Shown in pieces: positions 16,925-27,574 of a DNA stretch of 64,000 nucleotides (position 1 is the first letter of the stretch; each line of letters starts with the position of its first letter). Origin of the DNA: Erwinia billingiae Eb661 (GTDB lineage: Bacteria > Pseudomonadota > Gammaproteobacteria > Enterobacterales > Enterobacteriaceae); NCBI RefSeq assembly GCF_000196615.1, contig NC_014306.1, positions 1,302,001 to 1,366,000 of the forward strand. Reading direction: 5' to 3'. The notes beneath the pieces were generated by a model. The model worked only from the letters and a program-made list of their open reading frames with translations. It was not told the DNA's origin and did not search any database. The position numbers and the translations under genes are program-made.

Positions 16925-17078
16925 CTAATAATAACGATAGCAAGAAGTGCTAAGAATCATCTTAAGGATTGCGGGATAATCTCTCTCGCCCCCTTCAAGA
17001 GCTAAGCCAATGCGAGTGCCGGAGATAAGCGCCGGATGGGGAGCAGTATTTAAAGAGGTCGCCTTTCGGCGGCCTTTT
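16925..17078 (+). ncRNA. Possible small RNA in the 16687-17249 gap
   Basis: The 563-bp gap between zinT and the Rid-family gene is long for this window and has no convincing coding region. At 17056-17078 AGGTCGCC pairs with GGCGGCCT (one G-U pair) around TTTC and is followed by TTTTCT, a good Rho-independent terminator with no gene ending at it. An AT-rich TAATAAT stretch near 16927 could be a -10 element, which would give a transcript of roughly 140 bases. The sequence does not match any enteric small RNA I can recall. Low confidence: the terminator is visible, the RNA is inferred. Confidence 0.3.
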
Positions 17079-17249
17079 CTCGTTATAAAGCTCCGCTTTT
17101 CACCGACAAGGTCTGGGCAAGGTCAGATTAGCAATCATCTTCCTTTACAGCGCGTTGCCTTATCAGCAACGCCGCGTGGACGAAATGCGTCTACGGTAAC
17201 CGGTTTCAATCTGCTAATGTTGATGTTCTTTTGTGCATTGGGGATCGTT

Positions 17250-17636
17250 ATGACTGTCATAAATCCTGACGGGTTGAAGGCCAGAAGTTACTACAACCAC
17301 ATCAAAATCCGGCCCGGCACACCGGTGTTTCCTACCGGACAGGTCGCCTGGGATCAGGACGGCAGAATCGTTGGGGTGGGCGATATGCGGCAACAGGTTG
17401 AGCAGGTGTACGCCAATATCGACAGGTTACTGGCAGGATTAGGCGTCAGTCGCGATACCATTGTCCGAACCACTACCTATGTGACCAATCTGGCGCTGGT
17501 GGCCGAAATTCATCCGGTGCGTGAGCGCTTCTTCGCCGGGCTGGAATTGCCCGCCAGCACGCTGTTCAAGGTATCGGCACTCGCTGAGCCGGAACTGATG
17601 CTGGAAATCGATCTGGTTATTATGTTGCCGCTCTGA
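17250..17636 (+). CDS. Rid-family (YjgF/YER057c/UK114) protein without the catalytic Arg
   Basis: A 128-residue Rid-family protein (MTVINPDGLKARSYYNH..., GVGDMRQQVEQVYANIDRLLAGLGVSRDTIVRTTTYVTNL). In RidA proper the segment near residue 105 reads PARxxV with an Arg that binds the imine substrate; here it reads PASTLFKV, so the Arg is replaced by Ser and 2-aminoacrylate deaminase activity is unlikely. The start is ATG 17250, preceded by GGGGATC; the frame stays open upstream to 17010 but without protein-like sequence. It converges on the Rut-like operon that ends at 17719 and might belong functionally to it, but it is separately transcribed. Confidence 0.8.
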   Translation: MTVINPDGLKARSYYNHIKIRPGTPVFPTGQVAWDQDGRIVGVGDMRQQVEQVYANIDRLLAGLGVSRDTIVRTTTYVTNLALVAEIHPVRERFFAGLELPASTLFKVSALAEPELMLEIDLVIMLPL

Positions 17637-17718: not shown

Positions 17719-18276
17719 TCAGACTTCCGTCACCACCAGCTCGTTAAGATGATGGAAACGGCGATCCATATACAGCAGCGGCGCGGCATCGGCACGAGGA
17801 TGGGTAACACCGGTCACTTCGCCAAGAAAAATACCATGGCTGTGCCAGTCAACAATCTTTGCCAGACGGCATTCAAACGACACCAGCGCTTCGGCACAGA
17901 TCGGCGCGCCCTGCGCTGAAAAGCTCCAGTCACCGGTCTGAAAGCGCTCCGCCCGACGGCTGGAGTTGCTGAAAATATCCACCAGTGAAACGGCCTCTTT
18001 CGACAACACATTTACGCAGAAACGGCCTCCCTCCTGAATCATTGCAAACATCGACGCATTGCGGTTAACGCACACCAGCAAGGTTGGCGGCTCGGCACTG
18101 ACCGAGGTTACGGCGGTGGCAATCATGCCGCTGTGCACACCGTCGTGATGAGTGGTGATCAGGCATACACCGGCTGGCAGCAGGCGCATCCCGCCGCGAT
18201 ACGCATCGGCAACATTGCCTGCCGCTTCGGTTACTGGCGGGATTATGCTGCCAGGGGCACTTCTGGACTCTGTCAT
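17719..18276 (-). CDS. Flavin reductase (RutF/DIM6-NTAB family)
   Basis: A 185-residue flavin reductase domain protein: GMRLLPAGVCLITTHHDGVHSGMIATAVTSVSAEPPTLLVCVNRNASM is the classic FMN-binding opening, and FECRLAKIVDWHSHGIFLGEV the C-terminal part. These enzymes use NAD(P)H to reduce FMN for a partner monooxygenase; in the Rut pathway RutF serves RutA. It is the last gene of the nine-gene operon whose second gene encodes a RutA-like monooxygenase, so it most likely supplies that enzyme with reduced FMN. Start ATG 18276 follows AAAGG. It lies 45 bp downstream of the aldo/keto reductase gene. Confidence 0.87.
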   Translation of the reverse strand: MTESRSAPGSIIPPVTEAAGNVADAYRGGMRLLPAGVCLITTHHDGVHSGMIATAVTSVSAEPPTLLVCVNRNASMFAMIQEGGRFCVNVLSKEAVSLVDIFSNSSRRAERFQTGDWSFSAQGAPICAEALVSFECRLAKIVDWHSHGIFLGEVTGVTHPRADAAPLLYMDRRFHHLNELVVTEV

Positions 18277-18321
18277 GAACGAACCTTTAACAATCGGTAA
18301 TGGGTTAAAATGTTATGCCTG

Positions 18322-19329
18322 TCACCTGCGAGTGACGCGACCTTCAATCGGGTGATGGCTGTCCACCGGACCGAGGCTGGAGCTTTTACCCGGCGAAACC
18401 AGCCGGTCGCAAAAGGCTTCATCTTCAGCCGTCCAGTCGCACGCCATCGCGGCGATACCGTCCTGCCACTGCTCAAACGTTCTCGGACCCAGTAGCGTGC
18501 TGGTCACGAGGCTGTTACGCATCACCCATGTCTGGGCAAGATGCGCGGGTTTACGTCCGGTCTGTTCGGCGTACGCCGCCAGCTCGCTCGCAGCCTGCAG
18601 CGACTCGGGCCGCCATTCCGCTTGCAACATGCGCGGGTCGCCTCGTCCGGCGCGGCTGCCCGCATCGGGTGCCTGATCCGGGCGATACTTGCCGGTCAGA
18701 ATGCCGCGCGCCAGCGGACTGTAGCAAACTGTGCCGGTGCCAAAATACGCAGCAGAAGGCAGAATTTCTACTTCTGCTTCACGATTGACCAGGTTGTAAA
18801 GCGGTTGCGTAGCGACCGGCCCAGCGATGCCGGCCTGATGGGCCAGACGTACCGTTTCTGCCAGCCGCCAGGCTTTGAAATTGGATACGGCGAAATAACC
18901 GATTTTGCCCTCTCGGATCAAATCGGCGAAGGCCTGCACCATCTCTTCCAGCGGGGCACTGAAATCCGCTTTGTGCATATAGAGGATATCGATGTAATCG
19001 GTGCCCAGGCGGGTCAGTGACGCATGGGCCGCTTCGCGGATCCACTTACGTGACATGCCGCCCTGATTCGGGCCTTCGCCCATCGGATTACCGGCTTTAG
19101 TTGCCAGCACCCAGCGATCGCGTTCGGCGGCAATCGCCCGCCCCACCACGCGCTCTGACTCGCCTTTGTTATAGACGTCGGCAGTATCGATAAAATTGAC
19201 TCCGCTGTCGCGTGCGGCGGCGATAATCTGCCGCGAGGTGGCCTCGTCGGTCACTCCGCCGAACATCATGGTGCCCAGGCAAATCTCTGAGACTTTTAGC
19301 CCACTGCGGCCCATATAACGGTATTGCAT
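18322..19329 (-). CDS. Aldo/keto reductase
   Basis: A 335-residue NADPH-dependent aldo/keto reductase of the YajO/Tas type. The catalytic tetrad is Asp48 (FIDTADVY), Tyr53, Lys78 (VLATKAG) and His119 (ILYMHKAD). The cofactor site lies near VSNFKAW and the C-terminal ARGILTGKY / LLGPRTFEQ segments. It would reduce an aldehyde or ketone intermediate. In the classical Rut pathway malonic semialdehyde is reduced by RutE, a nitroreductase-type protein missing here, so this enzyme could fill that step; this is inference from operon position. ATG 19329 follows AGAGGA. Confidence 0.85.
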   Translation of the reverse strand: MQYRYMGRSGLKVSEICLGTMMFGGVTDEATSRQIIAAARDSGVNFIDTADVYNKGESERVVGRAIAAERDRWVLATKAGNPMGEGPNQGGMSRKWIREAAHASLTRLGTDYIDILYMHKADFSAPLEEMVQAFADLIREGKIGYFAVSNFKAWRLAETVRLAHQAGIAGPVATQPLYNLVNREAEVEILPSAAYFGTGTVCYSPLARGILTGKYRPDQAPDAGSRAGRGDPRMLQAEWRPESLQAASELAAYAEQTGRKPAHLAQTWVMRNSLVTSTLLGPRTFEQWQDGIAAMACDWTAEDEAFCDRLVSPGKSSSLGPVDSHHPIEGRVTRR

Positions 19330-19396
19330 CTGGCAAATCCTCTTGGTTGCACTTGCGGAGCAGTAAGCTTAGCCGCTCCGCGAACGGCCCATGTCG

Positions 19397-19798
19397 TCAG
19401 GCTGGAATGATGGCGGTGGTAGCAATCTCAACCAGAAACTCAGGCCTGACCATTTCCAGCTTGACGCAAAAACGTGCCGGCAAAATAGCCGGGAAGTAGG
19501 TGACGTACAGTTCGTTGAATTTATGGTAGTCGTCCAGATTACGCAGGAAGATCTGATTCATCACCACGTGATCCATGCTGCTGCCGGCCGACTCTAACAC
19601 CACTTTGATGCTGTCCAGTACCCGGCGCGTCTGTACTTCAATATCGCCTTCACCAACGATGCTGCCATCAATCGGATCGGTCGAGAGCATGCCCGCGACG
19701 GAAATATGGTTGCCCGACTTCACGCCCCAGTTAAGGTGATTGAGGCCGGTCGCAGTTTTGCCAATGATCCAACCTTCCGGATTTATTGCCTGATTCAT
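19397..19798 (-). CDS. Rid-family deaminase, RutC-like
   Basis: A 133-residue Rid-family protein with the catalytic Arg kept in LPARFCVKLEMV and the YLE-type core GDIEVQTRRVLDSIKVVLESAGSSMDHVVMNQIFLRNLDDY. In the Rut pathway RutC hydrolyses 3-aminoacrylate, the unstable product formed after ring opening, to malonic semialdehyde and ammonia. That role fits here because the operon also carries RutA-, RutD- and RutF-like genes. ATG 19798 follows AGGAG. It stands between the permease genes and the aldo/keto reductase gene. Confidence 0.8.
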   Translation of the reverse strand: MNQAINPEGWIIGKTATGLNHLNWGVKSGNHISVAGMLSTDPIDGSIVGEGDIEVQTRRVLDSIKVVLESAGSSMDHVVMNQIFLRNLDDYHKFNELYVTYFPAILPARFCVKLEMVRPEFLVEIATTAIIPA

Positions 19799-19839
19799 CT
19801 CTGACTCCTGTTGGGGCTTCCGCCCACGGTGTTAAGTGA

Positions 19840-20781
19840 TTAACGCCCCGATCCGCGGAGGAAAGGGCGACCTAAATCTGCCGGTGCCGCGCCCGCCCGA
19901 CCCATCATGATCCAGGCAAACAGCGCGACCACAAACGGCATTGCCATTAACAGCGACGGCGCGATATCAATGCCCAGATATTGCCCCTGGAACTGCAGGG
20001 CCTCGAGCAGGCCGAGCACCACAGCGACGATCAGCACCCGCAGCGGCTTCCAGCGGGCAAAGATGGTGATGGCAATCGCCAGATAGCCGCGACCGGCGGT
20101 CATATCGTCGACGAAGATCCCGCCCGAGGCGACGATGCACAAATAGGCGCCACCCAGTCCCGCCATCAGGCCGGTGAACAACGCGGCAAAAAAGCGCAGG
20201 CGTAATACCGGGTGGCCGGCGGCATCGGTGGATAATGCATTTTCGCCCACCGCCCGCAGCAACAGTCCTGCGCGAGTAAAGCGGAACAATACCCACAGCG
20301 CGATGCCCACCAGCACCGCCAGATAGAACACCGGGCTTTGCGAGAACAGGGCGCGTCCCACCACCGGAATATCCGACAGCCAGGGCAGTTTTAACATCGA
20401 GACGGACCGCATTGAGCCGCTTGCCGGCGCACCGCTTAGCCATAGTTGCCGAATCAGTGATGTCGCGCCGATGGCCAACAAATTGAAGCCAATGCCCATC
20501 ACAATCTGGTTGGCACGGGCAAAAACGGTGGCGAATGCCAGCACCGCTGCCGCCAGCAGTCCGCCCGCCATGCCAGCCAGCAGAGCGAGCATCGGCGAGC
20601 CGGTTACTGCCAGTCCCAGCGCCGAGGCAGACGCGCCAAACAGCATCAGACCTTCCAGCCCGATGGTGAACACGCCCGCCCGTTCAGAAACGGTTTCGCC
20701 CAGTGCGGCGAGCATCACCGGCACGCAGAGCCTCAGCCCACCGGCAAAAAACAGGGCCAGAGTTACAGCGTCGAATTCCAT
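19840..20781 (-). CDS. ABC importer permease (BMP/nucleoside type), second subunit
   Basis: A 313-residue membrane protein with about eight to ten hydrophobic segments of the branched-chain-amino-acid/ribose permease fold (YufQ/NupQ group). ETVSERAGVFTIGLEGLMLFGA near residue 30 and AVGENALSTDAAGHPVLRLRFFAAL near residue 190 are characteristic; the latter is the loop that contacts the ATPase. Its start overlaps the end of the first permease gene by 19 bp. Together with the ATPase and the BMP binding protein it forms a complete importer of the type that takes up nucleosides or nucleobases. Confidence 0.88.
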   Translation of the reverse strand: MEFDAVTLALFFAGGLRLCVPVMLAALGETVSERAGVFTIGLEGLMLFGASASALGLAVTGSPMLALLAGMAGGLLAAAVLAFATVFARANQIVMGIGFNLLAIGATSLIRQLWLSGAPASGSMRSVSMLKLPWLSDIPVVGRALFSQSPVFYLAVLVGIALWVLFRFTRAGLLLRAVGENALSTDAAGHPVLRLRFFAALFTGLMAGLGGAYLCIVASGGIFVDDMTAGRGYLAIAITIFARWKPLRVLIVAVVLGLLEALQFQGQYLGIDIAPSLLMAMPFVVALFAWIMMGRAGAAPADLGRPFLRGSGR

Positions 20782-21860
20782 ACCGGCCTCCCTTTCACCA
20801 ACATCACGCCACTGATGGTCGCGAGGAAAATAATCGGCATGCCACCAAGCACATCCGCTAACGCCGCCGGGATCGAAAAGGTACTTTGCAGGGCCAGCGC
20901 GGCACTGTTGATCGCGCCAAAATAGAGCGAAACGATGATGGCGCCGAAGGGTTCAAGACCGGCGAGGAAAGAGACCGCCAGCCCTTCAAACCCCAAGCCG
21001 GAAGAGAAGCCGTCAATCAGACGGTACTGCACGCCCAGTACTTCAAATGCCCCGGCCAGTCCACTAATTGCACCTGAAATCGCCATACTGGAAATCACAT
21101 TTTTTGCCGCAGACTGACCCTGAAACTGCACAAAGCGCGGGCTCTGGCCGCTGGCCCGCAGTTTTAAACCAAATGCGGTATGTTCCAGCATTACCCAGAC
21201 GGCGAGGGCAATCATCAGGGCCAAGAACACGCCAGAGTGCAGACGTGTGCCGGCAATCACCTGTTCAAAAACGCCATCAGCCGGTAACTGCGCGGACATA
21301 TTGAAGTTGGAATTCGCCGGACGCATCGGCCCTTGCACCAGATACTTGAGGGTATAAATAGCGATAAAATTCATCATCAGCGTCACGATGATTTCATCGA
21401 TGCCACGCCAGACTTTCAGCACGGCGGGGATCAATCCCCACAACGCACCGCAAAGCGCACCACTGAGGATCGCCAGCGGCAGCAGGGCAGCGCCAATATC
21501 GCCGAAGGCGAGAAACGGCAACATCGCGCCGATGGCGCCCATTTGCAGCTGTCCTTCGCCACCCAGATTAAACATGCCGCCGCGAATGGCCACCAGCGCA
21601 CCCAGCGCCACCAGCAGCCGCGGCGTCATAAACACCAGCGTATCGGACAGCGCGCGCACCGAGCCAAACGCGCCATCCCACACCACGCTGATGGCGGAAT
21701 GTAGCGGCACGCCCATTGCGGCGATTAACCCCAGCCCGAGGATCGCCGATCCGATAAAGGCGCTGAGGGTGACCCATAAGGAACTGGCCGCGCTAAGCCT
21801 GGCGATAACGCGACGCAAAGATGCGCTGGATTCGGTCAGTGGATTGATTGATTCAGACAT
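20763..21860 (-). CDS. ABC importer permease (BMP/nucleoside type), first subunit
   Basis: A protein of about 365 residues with roughly ten hydrophobic segments, the YufP/NupP partner of the permease pair. IRGGMFNLGGEGQLQMGAIGAM is the family hallmark, with ASGQSPRFVQFQGQSAAKNVISSMAISGAISGLAGAFEVLG as the ATPase-contact loop. ATG 21860 follows AAGGGGTG; a GTG two codons earlier is less well placed. The gene overlaps the ATPase stop by about 8 bp and the second permease start by 19 bp, so all are translationally coupled. Confidence 0.88.
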   Translation of the reverse strand: MSESINPLTESSASLRRVIARLSAASSLWVTLSAFIGSAILGLGLIAAMGVPLHSAISVVWDGAFGSVRALSDTLVFMTPRLLVALGALVAIRGGMFNLGGEGQLQMGAIGAMLPFLAFGDIGAALLPLAILSGALCGALWGLIPAVLKVWRGIDEIIVTLMMNFIAIYTLKYLVQGPMRPANSNFNMSAQLPADGVFEQVIAGTRLHSGVFLALMIALAVWVMLEHTAFGLKLRASGQSPRFVQFQGQSAAKNVISSMAISGAISGLAGAFEVLGVQYRLIDGFSSGLGFEGLAVSFLAGLEPFGAIIVSLYFGAINSAALALQSTFSIPAALADVLGGMPIIFLATISGVMLVKGRPVWNSTL

Positions 21861-23361
21861 GTTCACCCCTTGCTGCTTGCGACGGCACGCCCTGACCCTG
21901 AGTCATCAGCGTGCCGATTCGCTCAATAGTCATCTCATCTCCCGCGACTTCGCCGGTAAAACGGCCGCCGTTCATCACCACGATGCGATCGGAAATGCGC
22001 AGTAATTCTTCAATATTGGAGGAGATAATCACCACGGTAGTGCTGGCATCTGCCGCTTCGGTGAGGCGGATTAACACCGCTTCTGCGGCGGCCATATCCA
22101 GCCCGCGCGTGGGCTGATAAACCACGATGATGGCCGCCGATTCCGCCATCGCCCGCGCTACCACGATCTTCTGCTGATTCCCCCCGGAAAGGGCGCGGGC
22201 AGGGCTAGTCGGCGAGTGGGTTCGAATATCGGATTGGGCGATCATTTCGCCGGCGCGCTGAGCAATGGCCGCATGGTTAAGCAGCCCCAGACGGCGGTAC
22301 TGGCCCTGCATAATTTTCGGATAGAGCAAATTATGGCTAACCGGCAAATCCAGCGATAACCCTTCGTGATGGCGATCCTGTGGCACCAGCGCCACCGTCA
22401 CCTCCTCGCCGCAGCGGGTGATCTCGCCACTCTCTGGCACTCGTTGGCCCGCCAGCAGTTCAAACAGTTCGGTTTGCCCGTTGCCTTCCACCCCGGCGAT
22501 GCCAATCACTTCCTGCTGGCGTAGCGTCAGGTTGATATTGCTCAGTCCGGGCGAGCCACTGGCAGGACGTAAATTGACCCCGCTGACGTGCATCCGCTCA
22601 ATGCCGGGCTGGCGTTGGCTGCCCAGCCGCGTGCCGCTGGCGACCGCACGGCCAACTATCTTTTCGACCAGCTCATCAGCACGACAGTCTTTAGTCATGC
22701 CCGTGCCGTTGGTTTTGCCGCGCCGGAGAATGGTGTAACGGTCGGCGTTAGCCAGCACTTCGTCGACATTGTGGGTCACCACCGCCACCGCCGTGCCTTT
22801 TTTACAGATACGCCGCACCGTGTCGTACAGCGCCACAATTTCAGCCGGGGTAAGGATAGTGGAGGGCTCATCCAGCAACAGCACGCGGGTGTCATTCACC
22901 AGCGCTTTCAGGATCTCGACGCGCTGCTGCAATGCCAGCGGTAGCTGCCCGACGATGGCGTGCGGATCGAGATCGACGCCATAGCCCTGCATAAAGGCGC
23001 GAATGTCCCCGTCCCGCCGCAGCGCTTTACGGCGTTCGCCCCTGGCAACCAGTGCCAGATTCTCGGCAACGGTAAACGGGCTGACCAGCTTGAAGTGCTG
23101 ATGAACCATGCCGATGCCATTGGCTATCGCATCGGCAGGCTGGCGGTGGATCACCTGGCGTCCAGCCATAAGCACGCCACCTTCACTCGGTTCGTGCACG
23201 CCGTACAGAATATTCATCAAGGTCGACTTGCCGGCCCCGTTCTCGCCCAGGAGCGCGTGGATCTCGCCTGGATAAAAAGACATGCAGACCTTATTCAGCG
23301 CGACGAAACCGTTTGGGTAGCGCTTCGAGACGTGATCAAGTTCGATGACGGGGCTGGACAT
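21853..23361 (-). CDS. ABC importer ATPase with two nucleotide-binding domains
   Basis: A 502-residue tandem ATPase of the nucleoside/monosaccharide importer group (YufO/NupO, RbsA-like). The first domain has an intact Walker A (GENGAGKST, 39-47) and Walker B (VLLLDEPST) but a degenerate signature (LPLALQQR). The second has an altered Walker A (GVEGNGQTEL) and the canonical signature LSGGNQQK, with VVYQPTRGLD as Walker B. This division of labour is normal in the family. ATG 23361 follows GAGGA and the ORF start overlaps the stop of the BMP-protein gene; in-frame TTG 23376 is not preferred. It energises uptake through the two permeases downstream. Confidence 0.9.
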   Translation of the reverse strand: MSSPVIELDHVSKRYPNGFVALNKVCMSFYPGEIHALLGENGAGKSTLMNILYGVHEPSEGGVLMAGRQVIHRQPADAIANGIGMVHQHFKLVSPFTVAENLALVARGERRKALRRDGDIRAFMQGYGVDLDPHAIVGQLPLALQQRVEILKALVNDTRVLLLDEPSTILTPAEIVALYDTVRRICKKGTAVAVVTHNVDEVLANADRYTILRRGKTNGTGMTKDCRADELVEKIVGRAVASGTRLGSQRQPGIERMHVSGVNLRPASGSPGLSNINLTLRQQEVIGIAGVEGNGQTELFELLAGQRVPESGEITRCGEEVTVALVPQDRHHEGLSLDLPVSHNLLYPKIMQGQYRRLGLLNHAAIAQRAGEMIAQSDIRTHSPTSPARALSGGNQQKIVVARAMAESAAIIVVYQPTRGLDMAAAEAVLIRLTEAADASTTVVIISSNIEELLRISDRIVVMNGGRFTGEVAGDEMTIERIGTLMTQGQGVPSQAARGEHV

Positions 23362-23365
23362 GCGG

Positions 23366-24331
23366 CTATTCCTCAATCTTAATCTTGCCAGCCTTCAGAT
23401 CGTCAATCACCTTAAACACTTTCGTTTCAACGTCTTTGCCGACATGGGCAAACGGCGTTTTCAGCGACCACCCATTGGTGGCTAAATTCTCGGTGATAAT
23501 GCGGTTGCCCAGCTGGTGGTCAGCAAAGTGCTTACCGATATCGGCATACGACTTGTCAAAGTTCATCACCGTGGAGGTCATGATCGCGTTCGGGAAGGAT
23601 TTTGATTGATCGGTATAGGAGCCGATAGTCAGTACGCCTTCATCATCGGCCGCTTGCTGAATACCGGCATCGGCGGTATCTGCCGCTGGGATGATAAAGT
23701 CGGCGCCACGGGCGATGGTGCCGGTAGCAATTTCTTTTGCGCGGGCCACGTCAGTGAAGGAGCCGACATAGGCCGAGTCGACCTGGATTTTAGGGTTGAC
23801 GTAAGCCGCCCCTTTTTTGATGAACTGCACGGTGCGTTCAGCCGACGGGATCGGTTCACCGCTAATCACCGCGATATGTCCGCTCTTACTGGCAGACGCG
23901 GCCAGCACACCGAGCACAAAGCCATATTCATCCCAGTCGACCGACCAGGCGGAGTAGTTCGGCAGGTTCGCCGTAGTGCTCTCGTAGGAATAGAGTACAA
24001 ACTGGGTGCCGGGGAAGGCGGGGGCCACTTCCTTGATCGCCGCGGAATAGCCGGATGAGTGGGCTATAACCAGCTTCACGCCATCCGACGCTAGCTGACG
24101 CAGCACCGCAGGCGCGGATTCATAGGTGGTGTTTTCAAGATAGCTGGGGGCGAAACCGTCTTTGGTCGCCATGGATTTGAATGCGGAATAGCCGGCCATA
24201 TCCCAAGAGCCCTGGCTGACGGTTTGGGTAAACAACGCGGCAACGCGCGGTTTGCTGTCATCTGCGTGCGCAACCGGGCCGTAACTTATTGCTGAGGAGA
24301 CCGCAAAAGCCAACATCATTTTCATTTTCAT
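23366..24331 (-). CDS. BMP-family periplasmic substrate-binding protein
   Basis: A 321-residue periplasmic binding protein with a signal peptide (hydrophobic run ending GPVAHA, about residue 23; no lipobox, so soluble rather than lipid-anchored). The BMP/PnrA family fold shows in VAALFTQTVSQGSWDMAGYSAF, LASDGVKLVIAHSSGYSAAI and GKIKIEE. BMP proteins mostly bind nucleosides or purine/pyrimidine derivatives. It is encoded directly upstream of its ATPase and permeases and directly downstream of the RutA-like monooxygenase, so it probably delivers the compound that the monooxygenase attacks. ATG 24331 follows CAGGAG. Confidence 0.88.
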   Translation of the reverse strand: MKMKMMLAFAVSSAISYGPVAHADDSKPRVAALFTQTVSQGSWDMAGYSAFKSMATKDGFAPSYLENTTYESAPAVLRQLASDGVKLVIAHSSGYSAAIKEVAPAFPGTQFVLYSYESTTANLPNYSAWSVDWDEYGFVLGVLAASASKSGHIAVISGEPIPSAERTVQFIKKGAAYVNPKIQVDSAYVGSFTDVARAKEIATGTIARGADFIIPAADTADAGIQQAADDEGVLTIGSYTDQSKSFPNAIMTSTVMNFDKSYADIGKHFADHQLGNRIITENLATNGWSLKTPFAHVGKDVETKVFKVIDDLKAGKIKIEE

Positions 24332-24413
24332 AGCTCAACTCCTGGCGAGCCGCGAAGCGGCAAAGGTGATTCATAAGAGGCTGAGACAGGCCCAGCCTGA
24401 AGGTGACTACCGA

Positions 24414-25535
24414 TCAACGCTTTACAGATTTTTGCCAGGCACGGGCGTTGGTATCGACGCCATGCAGCTCCAATACCTCCAGCACCTCGGTGCCGACCGT
24501 GCGCAGGTCATCGATGAAGTCCGGCACAATCACAGTGACGCCATCCAGCTGTGCCCCTTTAACAATCGCCGCCAGCTTGTTGCCGATCGTCTCCGGAGAG
24601 CCAACCAGTGCGGCGCGCGTCATCGAATTACGCTGCTCACCCTGCGAAACGAAACGCTGAGCCATGGTGTTTTGCTTGAAGCTTTTATCGCCGGAATATT
24701 CACGCGTCTGGTTATCCAGCGCGATGGTATCGACGCCGGCGTCATAGAAGGCCACCCGCTCCTGCGCTTCAGCATCGGTTGCGCCCGGAACGATGGTAAA
24801 CAGCCCGTACGTTTTGAAGTCGGGTTTACCTTGCTGCGCCGCGAGCTCTTTGGCCCGCAGGCCGGTTTTAATAAAATCGTCGTGGTCTGAGCCGAGCATA
24901 AAACTGCCGGTGCAATGTTCGATGGTGAACAGGAAGCCCCGGTCGGAGGCGCCGGCGCAGATGATCGGTGGCGGGGAAACCGGTTTAGGGTTCGACATAC
25001 AGTCGGTCAGTTGGTAGTGCTTACCCTGATGATCGACCCGATCTTCGGTCCACAGGCGTTTAAGCACCTCCAGCCATTCCGCCGCCAGCTCATAGCGTTC
25101 GCCATGATCCAGATCCATCCACAGCCCCATCTGCCCCTGATCGGTGGGATTGGATCCCGAAACGATATTCAGCGCAAAGCGCCCTTTAGAGATTTGATCG
25201 AGCACAGCGGTCATTTTGGCCACTACCGCCGGATGGAAAACCATGGTATGCACCGTTCCCCACACGCCAATTCGGCTGGTGGCCTGCGCCAGTCCCGCCA
25301 TGGTGGTCAGGCTTTCCAGCGTGACGTCCCAGTGTTTAGACGGACCGCCGTAGCCGCGCCATTTCGCCATCGACAAGGCAAAATCAAATCCTAATTGCTC
25401 CGCCAGCACGGTGACGTCGCGGTTGTAATCATAGGTCGCCGGCAGTTGAGGGCTGTTGGTAGAGGTGATCCAGCCGCCGTTACCGACCGGGAGAAAGACG
25501 CCAAACTCAACGTTACGCGATTCGTGGTTGCTCAT
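24414..25535 (-). CDS. LLM-class flavin monooxygenase, RutA-like
   Basis: A 373-residue FMN-dependent bacterial-luciferase-like monooxygenase. It shares with E. coli RutA the opening VEFGVFLPVGNGGWITSTNSPQ, FDFALSMAKWRGYGG, LESLTTMAGLA, and QISKGRFALNIVSGS...QMGLW. The Asn of the LNIVSG motif and the Thr in the preceding GTVHTM segment, used by RutA-group enzymes to make flavin-N5-peroxide, appear conserved by eye. RutA opens the uracil ring between N3 and C4. Differences from RutA outside these blocks are large, so the substrate may be another N-heterocycle. ATG 25535 follows GGAGGTG; it overlaps the end of the RutD-like gene by 23 bp. Confidence 0.85.
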   Translation of the reverse strand: MSNHESRNVEFGVFLPVGNGGWITSTNSPQLPATYDYNRDVTVLAEQLGFDFALSMAKWRGYGGPSKHWDVTLESLTTMAGLAQATSRIGVWGTVHTMVFHPAVVAKMTAVLDQISKGRFALNIVSGSNPTDQGQMGLWMDLDHGERYELAAEWLEVLKRLWTEDRVDHQGKHYQLTDCMSNPKPVSPPPIICAGASDRGFLFTIEHCTGSFMLGSDHDDFIKTGLRAKELAAQQGKPDFKTYGLFTIVPGATDAEAQERVAFYDAGVDTIALDNQTREYSGDKSFKQNTMAQRFVSQGEQRNSMTRAALVGSPETIGNKLAAIVKGAQLDGVTVIVPDFIDDLRTVGTEVLEVLELHGVDTNARAWQKSVKR

Positions 25536-26349
25536 AAGCACCTCCGTTTGCCGGGCTGTGGATGGCTGCCACAAACCCAAACGTAATCTGGTTAAACAAT
25601 GCGGGTTCCGTTTCAGACAGACTGTGTCCGCCCTGCGGGACGATTTTTAGTTCCGATCCGGCGATGCCCTCAGCCAGCAGGCGCGACTGGTAAGGTGGGG
25701 TCAGCACGTCATCCTGTGCGCAGAGCACCAGCGTCGGGATGGCGATCAGCGGCAAACAGGCGATAGCATCGTGCGCCATAATGGCGTCAATGCGGCTGAG
25801 CACCACCTCGCGCTGCGGAAATTTGGCGGCCGAGGCCAACAACGCTGGGGACAACACCTCGGCATTGGCTCTTACATGATCCGGTGGGTAAAGGAACAAT
25901 GCGCTGCCATGTACATATTCTTCCACCGTGCTGCCCACAAGCAGCGCGCGGCGCATACGGAAACACCAGTTGAAATGCCGGTCCGACTTCGCCCAGCTGG
26001 CGTACATCACCATGCCGGCCAGCAGGTCAGGATGACGCGCGGCGAGGATCTGGCCGATGGCGCCACCCGTGGAATGGCCAATCAGGATCGGCCGTTCCAG
26101 CTTCAGTTCGCTAAGCAGACAAAACAGATCGTCGACCAGCGTTTCAATGCTGTATGGTCCGGCGGGATGTTCAGTCGTGCCAGACCCGCGCTGATCGTAG
26201 GTCAGAACGGTGAAGTCTTTGGCAAAAGCCGCAATCTGCGGCTGCCAGTAGGCCGCCGTTCCGCCCAATCCGGAGACAAAGACAATGGCCGGACCCGTGC
26301 CCTGAATTTCATAGTGGGTCAGTATCCCGTTAGTCATGATGCTCGGCAT
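25513..26349 (-). CDS. Alpha/beta hydrolase, RutD-like
   Basis: A 278-residue alpha/beta hydrolase. The oxyanion region is FVSGLGGTAAYW and YDQRGSGTTEH, the nucleophile Ser lies in IGHSTGGAIG (about residue 93), the acid in LCAQDDVLTP and the His in PQGGHSLSETEP. Order and wording resemble E. coli RutD (LISGLGGSGSYW, YDQRGTG, GGHACNVTDPETFN), though RutD has GHALGA where this has GHSTGG, so this protein keeps a classical Ser nucleophile. RutD speeds breakdown of the aminoacrylate carbamate. It is the first gene of the operon; ATG 26349 follows GAGGG, and a 15-bp palindrome lies 25 bp upstream. Confidence 0.83.
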   Translation of the reverse strand: MPSIMTNGILTHYEIQGTGPAIVFVSGLGGTAAYWQPQIAAFAKDFTVLTYDQRGSGTTEHPAGPYSIETLVDDLFCLLSELKLERPILIGHSTGGAIGQILAARHPDLLAGMVMYASWAKSDRHFNWCFRMRRALLVGSTVEEYVHGSALFLYPPDHVRANAEVLSPALLASAAKFPQREVVLSRIDAIMAHDAIACLPLIAIPTLVLCAQDDVLTPPYQSRLLAEGIAGSELKIVPQGGHSLSETEPALFNQITFGFVAAIHSPANGGAYEQPRIA

Positions 26350-26499: not shown

Positions 26500-27387
26500 T
26501 TAACCAATCTCTTTGCAGATATGCTTCAGAAACTGATGGGCAGCGAAGGAGAGAGAGCGATCGCGATGCACGCAGATTTCGATGGTGGCGGATTGCATCG
26601 CCTCGTTTTCAATGGGAATGGCGCGCAGCAGATTTTGCTGGATCTCTTTGGTGGCGATCTGTTCTGGGCCGATGGTTAAGGTTCTGCCCGCCATCGCCAT
26701 TGCTTTGGTCAGCTCAAGATTATTGGTGTTCACAATCGATTGCGGATTCAGATGCAGGTTGCGAATATTTTTATCGAAGGTCTGACGCAGACCGAAGCTG
26801 GAGACGGGCAGGGCGATTGGCCAGGCGCAAATATCTTCCAGCGTCAGAGAATCATGGTCGGCTAGCGGGTGTTTCGGTGACACCAGGCACTGAATTGGTG
26901 CAGCGCAGCGTTTAATCACCTCGATGCCGGGTCGTTCACCCATGTTAAAAACGATGCCAATATCAATCTCATCGCGCATGATCGCTTCAATTGTCCGGTC
27001 GGAGGATTCGCTATATATGGAGAACTGAATGGCTGGGTAATTTTCATTAAATTCAGTCACTATGCGCGGTAATATCGCCTGAACCACCGCTTCAATCACC
27101 CATATTTTGACTTCCCCTTCGCGCAGGCCTTTTAAATTTTTAATCGACTCATGGATACGATCTAAATCCCGTACCATTTTTCGGGTAAAGCGTTCCAGCA
27201 TCATGCCTGCGGGCGTCAGCCGGATACCGGTGTTGGTGCGCTCCAGCAGCATAACGCCGAGGCTGTGTTCGAGTAATGCGATCTGGCGACTGATGGCCGA
27301 CGGGGCGACGTGCAAGCGATCGGCGGCGCGACGAATCGATCCGCTGGCCACTACCTCATTGAAATATTTATAAGTATTTAAATTCAT
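26500..27387 (-). CDS. LysR-family transcriptional regulator
   Basis: A 295-residue LysR regulator with an N-terminal winged helix-turn-helix (MNLNTYKYFNEVVASGSIRRAADRLHVAPSAISRQIALLEHSLG) and a co-inducer domain from about residue 90. ATG 27387 is preferred over the upstream in-frame codons because AGGGGTTGG precedes it. The gene is upstream of and in the same direction as the Rut-like operon, with a 150-bp gap holding a GC-rich hairpin and a palindrome, so it is probably the operon's activator, replacing the TetR-type RutR of E. coli. LysR genes are usually divergent from their targets, so the tandem layout is slightly unusual. Confidence 0.85.
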   Translation of the reverse strand: MNLNTYKYFNEVVASGSIRRAADRLHVAPSAISRQIALLEHSLGVMLLERTNTGIRLTPAGMMLERFTRKMVRDLDRIHESIKNLKGLREGEVKIWVIEAVVQAILPRIVTEFNENYPAIQFSIYSESSDRTIEAIMRDEIDIGIVFNMGERPGIEVIKRCAAPIQCLVSPKHPLADHDSLTLEDICAWPIALPVSSFGLRQTFDKNIRNLHLNPQSIVNTNNLELTKAMAMAGRTLTIGPEQIATKEIQQNLLRAIPIENEAMQSATIEICVHRDRSLSFAAHQFLKHICKEIG

Positions 27388-27574
27388 ACCAACCCCTGAA
27401 AGCAAAATGTTGCCGTAATGACGTTCAGGGCTGATGCAACATTGATACCAACGGGCGTTGCCAAACTGGCAGCACTAGCAAAGCAGGGCTTTCATGCAGA
27501 ATGCGAGAACGAACAGAATAAAAAATAATCAGCGGTGGTATGATTAGGCCCATTCACCAAAAAGGTCGACGATA

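Follow-up and report, generated by a model that had tools for sequence, protein, structure and literature searches.

The closest described relative of the gene cluster considered here is the Rut pathway of Escherichia coli (rutABCDEFG), in which RutA cleaves the N3-C4 bond of uracil. A second described system, thiamin pyrimidine salvage (ThiXYZ-YlmB-TenA), meets it in some relatives, where the salvage genes belong to the same cluster. In salvage, YlmB and TenA convert formylaminopyrimidine (FAMP) and the aminopyrimidine to hydroxymethylpyrimidine (HMP), the pyrimidine of thiamin (parts of PMC5627462 and PMC10470507), and the HMP goes to vitamin synthesis, with thiamin pyrophosphate (TPP) riboswitches described for Paenibacillus (in part of PMC5627462). 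The cluster in question lies on the minus strand at positions 17719-26349 of a 64,000-nucleotide stretch of the Erwinia billingiae Eb661 genome (NC_014306.1, positions 1,302,001 to 1,366,000; hereafter the window). Its nine genes share one orientation, in the order D-A-BMP-ATP-P2-P1-C-AKR-F, and family scans find RutD-, RutA-, RutC- and RutF-like proteins (D, A, C and F), an aldo/keto reductase (AKR) and a complete BMP-type ATP-binding cassette (ABC) importer, just as an initial annotation of the sequence had labeled them. That annotation also read the genes as a ring-opening cluster of the Rut type that has an importer of its own and acts on a compound other than uracil, a view that is supported here. 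It gave no substrate, and the genes linked to the cluster in relatives indicate the pyrimidine of thiamin. We infer, with a probability of roughly three in five, that the function of the cluster is the catabolism of HMP, an inference that takes in the substrate, every reaction and the catabolic direction.

Relation to the Rut pathway

The genome already holds a complete canonical rut operon, inside C3:1762000-1776000, with RutA (715 bits) and RutB (437 bits) above the cut-off. All four Rut-like proteins of the cluster, by contrast, fall below the curated cut-offs for canonical membership: A reaches 270.6 bits against the 498.3 required of RutA, and C, D and F also fall short (Table 1). A and the genome's own RutA share 128 of 359 aligned residues. 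A maximum-likelihood tree of 97 sequences places A in a clade of its own (support 100/99), with canonical RutA in a separate one (100/100) and a second RutA-like clade also standing apart; L041 and L048 were left out of the tree by a match-length filter, and the placement of L063 and L098, both on long branches, is unsure. Since a complete rut operon is present and A falls in a separate clade, the cluster is no replacement for Rut. The initial annotation had named such an operon elsewhere, together with a cluster showing no linked phenotype, as grounds for giving up a separate pathway; of the two, the operon has been found. The same co-existence is seen in 17 of the 30 genomes with a clade member, which have a RutA above the curated cut-off as well.

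An alignment of A served as the profile for a search of genome contigs, and the best 80 of 537 matches were used as relatives. They make up an A clade of 31 loci (the window, L020-L048 and L097) and a sister clade of 50 (L049-L096, L098 and L099). Canonical controls were 18 loci, one per genome: the window genome's own and 17 taken from the 21 RutA matches that pass the cut-off, each covered by a stretch of 14 to 20 kb. Neighbors were counted as open reading frames (ORFs) of at least 80 residues with a BLAST match over 60% of the reference, at fixed thresholds. By this count RutB is found near none of the 31 clade loci, against 43 of 50 sister-clade and 14 of 18 canonical loci. RutB, RutE and RutG had been reported missing in the window, and the search agrees: there is no RutB match in the window (the whole genome was searched), and no RutE or RutG homologue among the window's ORFs at about 8-36 kb, RutR not having been searched for by itself. 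The suggestion that the AKR stands in for RutE is not supported, since RutE, seen in only three of the 31 loci (L022, L023 and L032), occurs there together with an AKR.

How much of the Rut chemistry do the enzymes retain? The oxygen pocket of RutA consists of L65, T105, N134, V136 and F224 (parts of PMC7662398 and PMC10005588). Alignment to the genome's own RutA finds all five in A, in keeping with the apparent flavin-peroxide residues noticed initially; the substrate-side residue W139 is replaced by Ser. This numbering assumes an offset of 19: six of the seven positions are as expected in the genome's own RutA, and Glu292, described together with W139, is not, being Thr there and Arg in A. 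Because the genome's own RutA differs at that place, Glu292 provides no basis for judging A. A has the fold family and oxygen pocket of the flavin-N5-(per)oxide group of two-component flavin mononucleotide (FMN) oxygenases (RutA, DszA, HcbA1). Riboflavin catabolism offers another case of a vitamin degraded by a luciferase-like monooxygenase (LLM)-type flavoenzyme, and riboflavin lyase (5w48) is among the PDB matches of A, albeit a distant one (E 2.5e-15 versus 1.4e-68 for RutA).

D carries GHSTGG where the genome's own RutD has GHALGG, so the Ser predicted at the RutD Ala position is indeed there. The motif is found in all 21 D orthologues of at least 40% identity, and the remoter hydrolases of L043 and L044 have GLSMGG. 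The best PDB match of D is E. coli RutD (3v48). In vitamin B6 catabolism, once the ring has been opened, an alpha/beta hydrolase splits an acetamido-methylene acid to give acetate and ammonia, and D may by analogy play a like role. However, D is nearest RutD, and its identification as a B6-type hydrolase was rejected: the match to alpha-(N-acetylaminomethylene)succinic acid hydrolase (3kxp) is weak and partial (E 1.5e-12, residues 13-115). The Arg that RutC requires for 3-aminoacrylate deaminase activity (part of PMC8113886) is present in 20 of 20 aligned C sequences. A second Rid protein beside the cluster, Rid2, has Ser at this position in 34 of 34 aligned rows. The common ground with E. coli Rut therefore consists of the RutA- and RutF-type proteins, a RutC-type Rid protein with its Arg, a RutD-like hydrolase and the RutA oxygen-pocket residues. 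Unlike E. coli Rut, the cluster is without RutB and RutG, has a hydrolase with a Ser nucleophile, falls in a separate RutA clade, co-exists with a canonical operon, and adds an Arg-less Rid protein, an AKR, a BMP-type importer and a LysR regulator.

Linkage to thiamin-pyrimidine genes in relatives

The core arrangement recurs in bacteria of several families and is, for that reason, not due to chance. In the genome context of the clade, a check suggested with the initial annotation, BMP is present in 20 of the 31 loci. At the fixed thresholds a TRZ/ATZ-type deaminase lies near 10 of the 31, and near none of the 50 sister-clade or 18 canonical loci (Fisher's test, 10/31 versus 0/68, 2.8e-6, uncorrected for relatedness). 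TenA (7/31, a count that accepts any BLAST match over 60% of the reference, the TenA of L040 being only 27% identical), a YlmB-type M20 hydrolase (6/31) and ThiY (7/31), which belongs to an NMT1/THI5-type ABC importer, are likewise absent from both sets of controls. The A clade is thus linked to TenA, a FAMP deformylase, ThiXYZ and the deaminase in relatives and not in the window itself.

On the Paracoccaceae plasmid pLA6_003, which encodes an A 86% identical to that of the window, the order in the depositors' annotation is ThiY-X-Z, deaminase, TenA, deformylase, LysR, RutD, RutA, Rid, BMP, ATP, two permeases, RutC and AKR, contiguous save for one ribB gene. The order from D to AKR is that of the window apart from a Rid gene that separates A from BMP, and the deformylase bears the product name "N-formyl-4-amino-5-aminomethyl-2-methylpyrimidine deformylase". 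Among 72,556 plasmids, a deaminase of more than 60% identity occurs in three (the next best is 36%), all of them among the five records that hold A. In Sinirhodobacter populi (L037), D, A, BMP, ATP, P2, P1, C and AKR are 63-86% identical to those of the window, and ThiY, ThiX, the deaminase, TenA, YlmB and LysR (50% identity to the window's LysR) are found within about 10 kb of AKR; its A is sister to the enteric and Pseudomonas group (support 100/97). Rhizobium sp. ACO-34A has the same gene set in another order, and similar sets occur in Acidisoma, Paenibacillus and Cohnella, the latter two without BMP. Loci with the linked deaminase occupy scattered positions in the clade, from L046 (the first branch here, with weak support) to L037.

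ThiY of Paenibacillus matches the solved FAMP-binding protein 3ix1 with E=3.6e-107, and the same protein is the best match of the Rhizobium ThiY (E=4.6e-41). The Paenibacillus TenA matches solved thiaminase II proteins. In the linked deaminases HxH is kept, as are other invariant His and Asp residues that would fit the metal ligands of the family. No TPP riboswitch was found in the seven cluster loci scanned, and in ten genomes with TPP riboswitches elsewhere none lies within about 90 kb of A (in seven of the ten, among the matches listed), which is more in line with catabolism than with vitamin synthesis. Unlike salvage, the set adds a deaminase and a ring-opening oxygenase, and has no TPP riboswitch at the scanned loci.

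A proposed route and its alternatives

In the complete versions of the cluster, ThiXYZ would import FAMP, the YlmB-type enzyme would deformylate it, and TenA would turn the resulting aminopyrimidine into HMP. The TRZ/ATZ-type deaminase would then swap the 4-amino group for oxygen, yielding a uracil-like lactam, whose N3-C4 bond is the counterpart of the one cleaved by RutA in uracil. With FMNH2 from a flavin reductase such as F, A would direct a flavin-N5-peroxide at C4 and cut this bond. Since C2 bears a methyl rather than an oxo group, the ring-opened product would be an acetamidino-acrylate, not ureidoacrylate; with no ureido group formed, RutB would have no substrate, and its absence from the clade loci is as the chemistry predicts. 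D, possibly together with Rid2, may strip the acetyl/amidine part, after which C, through its RutC-type Arg, would hydrolyze the aminoacrylate to an aldehyde and ammonia, and AKR (or RutE) would reduce the aldehyde. The BMP importer would take in the free pyrimidine. Because the upstream half is missing in the window, the importer there would most likely take up the 4-oxo pyrimidine, or else HMP that is deaminated by an unlinked enzyme; the imported compound may be an already deaminated 4-oxo pyrimidine, or another pyrimidinone.

What the importer binds can be narrowed to some extent. The nearest solved structure to the BMP protein is AtzT (6pi5), a binder of guanine and 2-hydroxyatrazine of the same binding-protein family, whose ligand contacts (taken from part of PMC6834077) were placed on the BMP protein by hand from the structure-match alignment. 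The two aromatics that sandwich the ring (here Trp and Phe) and Ser97 are kept; on the other hand, the purine-contacting Glu165 is Ser, and Asn218 and Asn220 are Asp and Ala (less sure, with a gap adjacent). The ligand is therefore probably a flat heterocycle other than guanine. The best NCBIfam matches of the importer are the "putative B6 ABC transporter" models NF047927-NF047930, all below cut-off (116.6/400, 215.3/465, 151.7/400 and 403/670 bits). A scarce or charged heterocycle or nucleoside rather than uracil had been guessed initially; something other than uracil still holds, and a nucleoside has become less likely, since the binding protein is nearest AtzT and the best model is of the B6 type.

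Several observations weigh against HMP catabolism. No thiamin gene is linked to the cluster in the window or in any of the ten other enteric and Pseudomonas loci, and the window's genome has no close deaminase, its best match (35% identical) lying beside another BMP importer. Altogether 21 of the 31 loci have no close deaminase in the stretch examined (some end at contig ends), and when the 20 other such genomes were all searched, only that of L037 had one (74% identical, just beyond the stretch), the others reaching 40% at most. The downstream half is variable too, with BMP in 20, AKR in 16, C in 20 and D in 21 of the 31 loci, and F is not adjacent to AKR in L037 or on pLA6_003, where a RutF-named gene is found about 8 kb further on. 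The counts include the related pairs L027/L031 and L035/L036. In the controls, deaminase-like paralogues of 27-31% identity fall below the threshold at 8 of 50 sister-clade and 3 of 18 canonical loci, as do NMT1-type binding proteins of 22-29% at 17 of the 50 sister-clade loci. Finally, the TRZ/ATZ family is promiscuous, and the roles given to Rid2, D and AKR, like the ligand of BMP, are guesses.

The missing upstream half could mean that in Enterobacterales and Pseudomonas the module was re-targeted to another 4-pyrimidinone or N-heterocyclic lactam, such as a metabolite of plants or insects or a pyrimidinol derived from a pesticide, thiamin pyrimidine being only the ancestral substrate. Besides the unlinked thiamin genes, it is favored by the lack of a close deaminase in these genomes (best 36%) and by the sporadic occurrence of the cluster (in one of 149 sampled genomes of the family, the window's own) together with its raised G+C content (58.5% against about 54% in the flanks, matching the highest 8.6-kb stretch sampled in the window), which suggest recent transfer. 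The enzymes are nevertheless still 63-86% identical to the thiamin-linked Sinirhodobacter copy, and six inspected RutA positions are identical in P0004 (Paenirhodobacter populi) and the window, so that re-targeting, although the strongest of the competitors, is unlikely.

Another reading is detoxification of harmful thiamin analogues (antivitamins of the 4-oxo-HMP or methoxy-HMP type) rather than nutrient use. In its favor, deamination of HMP would itself give an antimetabolite-like pyrimidine needing removal, and in a variant of the cluster from Betaproteobacteria there are also genes for a Rieske oxygenase and formaldehyde dehydrogenase, which would fit a methoxy or hydroxymethyl group. But dedicated importers (BMP and ThiXYZ) bring the compound in, which better fits nutrition, and the gene run of L039 includes an ammonium-transporter-like gene (below its cut-off). 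This explanation is improbable, and slightly more so is a Rut variant that acts on uracil, thymine or nucleosides and has a high-affinity importer. Here the nearest characterized relatives, RutA, RutC, RutD and RutF, speak in its favor, as opposed to the canonical operon in the same genome, the separate clade and sub-threshold score of A, its replaced Trp139, and the lack of RutB at all 31 loci even though uracil opening gives a ureido group. The canonical operon, the clade and the missing RutB rule out a nucleoside or uracil/thymine pathway as the best reading, which remains HMP catabolism.

One gene of the window's genome was considered for the missing deamination step but not adopted. The deaminase at C3:4614752-4616062 is the 35% match mentioned above, and lies beside a RutB-like gene and the other BMP importer; at two of the seven positions where every linked deaminase has His, it has Thr and Arg. 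In the surrounding region (C3:4606000-4624500, L106), the second BMP importer and this TRZ/ATZ-type deaminase are accompanied by a LysR gene, a RutB-like hydrolase of the isochorismatase family and a cupin identified by eye, which likely make up another N-heterocycle pathway; similar pairs of deaminase and RutB-like genes are found in L108 and L109.

The locus, its variants and their meaning

The features of the locus are collected in Table 1. The genes had been described as mostly overlapping, which is true of four of the eight listed junctions (fewer with other starts), while gaps of 41-82 bases precede BMP, C, AKR and F. The ORF of A is listed from TTG 25580, but the ATG at 25535 is preceded by a ribosome-site-like sequence and is the likely true start. 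The LysR gene and Rid2, neither of them mentioned in the initial annotation, are counted as part of the cluster because both recur beside it in relatives. Rid2 is convergent to the cluster in the window, whereas the 12 BMP-containing non-enteric loci have it placed between A and BMP; the copies of other enterics are 57-65% identical to Rid2 of Rhizobium L027. A rydB small RNA (Rfam RF00118, 80.3 bits) at 16988-17049 on the plus strand runs into the 5' part of ORF 17010-17636 as listed, and the start of Rid2 is therefore probably later, near 17250. A promoter and terminator scan gave counts not above those of shuffled sequences, and megablast of E. coli genomes returned no match.

Table 1. Genes of the cluster and its immediate neighbors, in positions of the window.
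Feature	Position	Strand	Evidence
D, RutD-like alpha/beta hydrolase; Ser nucleophile (GHSTGG), Asp and His kept	25513..26349	-	TIGR03611, 217 bits (RutD cut-off 238.5)
A, RutA-like FMN-dependent LLM monooxygenase	24414..25535	-	PF00296; TIGR03612, 270.6 bits (RutA cut-off 498.3)
BMP-type periplasmic binding protein	23366..24331	-	PF02608; best PDB match AtzT 6pi5
ATP, importer ABC ATPase	21853..23376	-	PF00005; best NCBIfam NF047930, below cut-off
P2, ABC permease 2	20763..21866	-	PF02653
P1, ABC permease 1	19840..20781	-	PF02653
C, RutC-like Rid protein with catalytic Arg	19397..19798	-	TIGR03610, 100.5 bits (RutC cut-off 169.1)
AKR, aldo/keto reductase	18322..19329	-	PF00248; in 16/31 clade loci
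F, RutF-like flavin reductase	17719..18276	-	PF01613; TIGR03615, 140.8 bits (RutF cut-off 254.75)
Rid2, second Rid protein, Ser instead of catalytic Arg	about 17250..17636	+	58% identity to linked Rid2 of Rhizobium L027
LysR-type regulator gene, adjoins cluster, conserved there in relatives	26500..27405	-	

Among the relatives, the betaproteobacterial variant (L043, L044 and L172, the last being plasmid pENH92 of Cupriavidus necator NH9) combines A with a flavin reductase, a Rid protein, an alpha/beta hydrolase and an ABC importer, to which the annotated L172 adds a Rieske ring-hydroxylating oxygenase and its reductase, formaldehyde dehydrogenase and ribA/ribBA; this variant is perhaps for a methoxy- or hydroxymethyl-pyrimidine. 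Riboflavin-biosynthesis genes in or beside A clusters (ribB at 14219-14854 of L170, which is pLA6_003, and ribA and ribBA at 20425-22197 of L172) perhaps supply FMN. In the actinobacterial loci L040, L045 and L097, A is accompanied by an additional, diverged copy, at 46-50% identity to the window's. In Pantoea rodasii and Erwinia sp. S63 (L041 and L048, around 10.0-11.1 kb) the reading frame of A appears split into two overlapping pieces, either a real break or a sequencing error. The sister group is RutA-like, with 38-48% identity to A, and has RutB-like hydrolases beside 43 of its 50 members.

Older or subscription literature includes studies of thiamin catabolism. A November 2025 paper, in the part concerned, names only B6, NAD+ and riboflavin catabolism as well characterized (PMC12746152). 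A search of open-license PubMed Central texts found no paper on a RutA-like thiamin-pyrimidine pathway; the subscription literature lay outside its scope, and prior print is possible. As far as the texts searched go, we lean towards the view that this would be the first genetic description of bacterial degradation of the thiamin pyrimidine ring, by a duplicated RutA re-purposed for 4-oxo-HMP, with salvage enzymes re-used and a dedicated deaminase, in a module spread over Pseudomonadota, Actinomycetota and Bacillota and shortened to importer plus ring opening in gammaproteobacteria.

If true, a defined and portable gene set would allow the turnover of vitamin B1 in soil, sea, plants and guts to be tested from genomes. 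It would also name a biological sink for HMP and related aminopyrimidines, compounds that feed vitamin auxotrophs (part of PMC10470507). RutA-type oxygenase chemistry would extend beyond uracil and thymine to other pyrimidinones, and the database names "pyrimidine oxygenase" and "RutA", which several relatives carry, would indicate the wrong substrate for the A clade. If confirmed, the cluster would be a variant of the Rut kind whose substrate opens a new chapter in vitamin catabolism.

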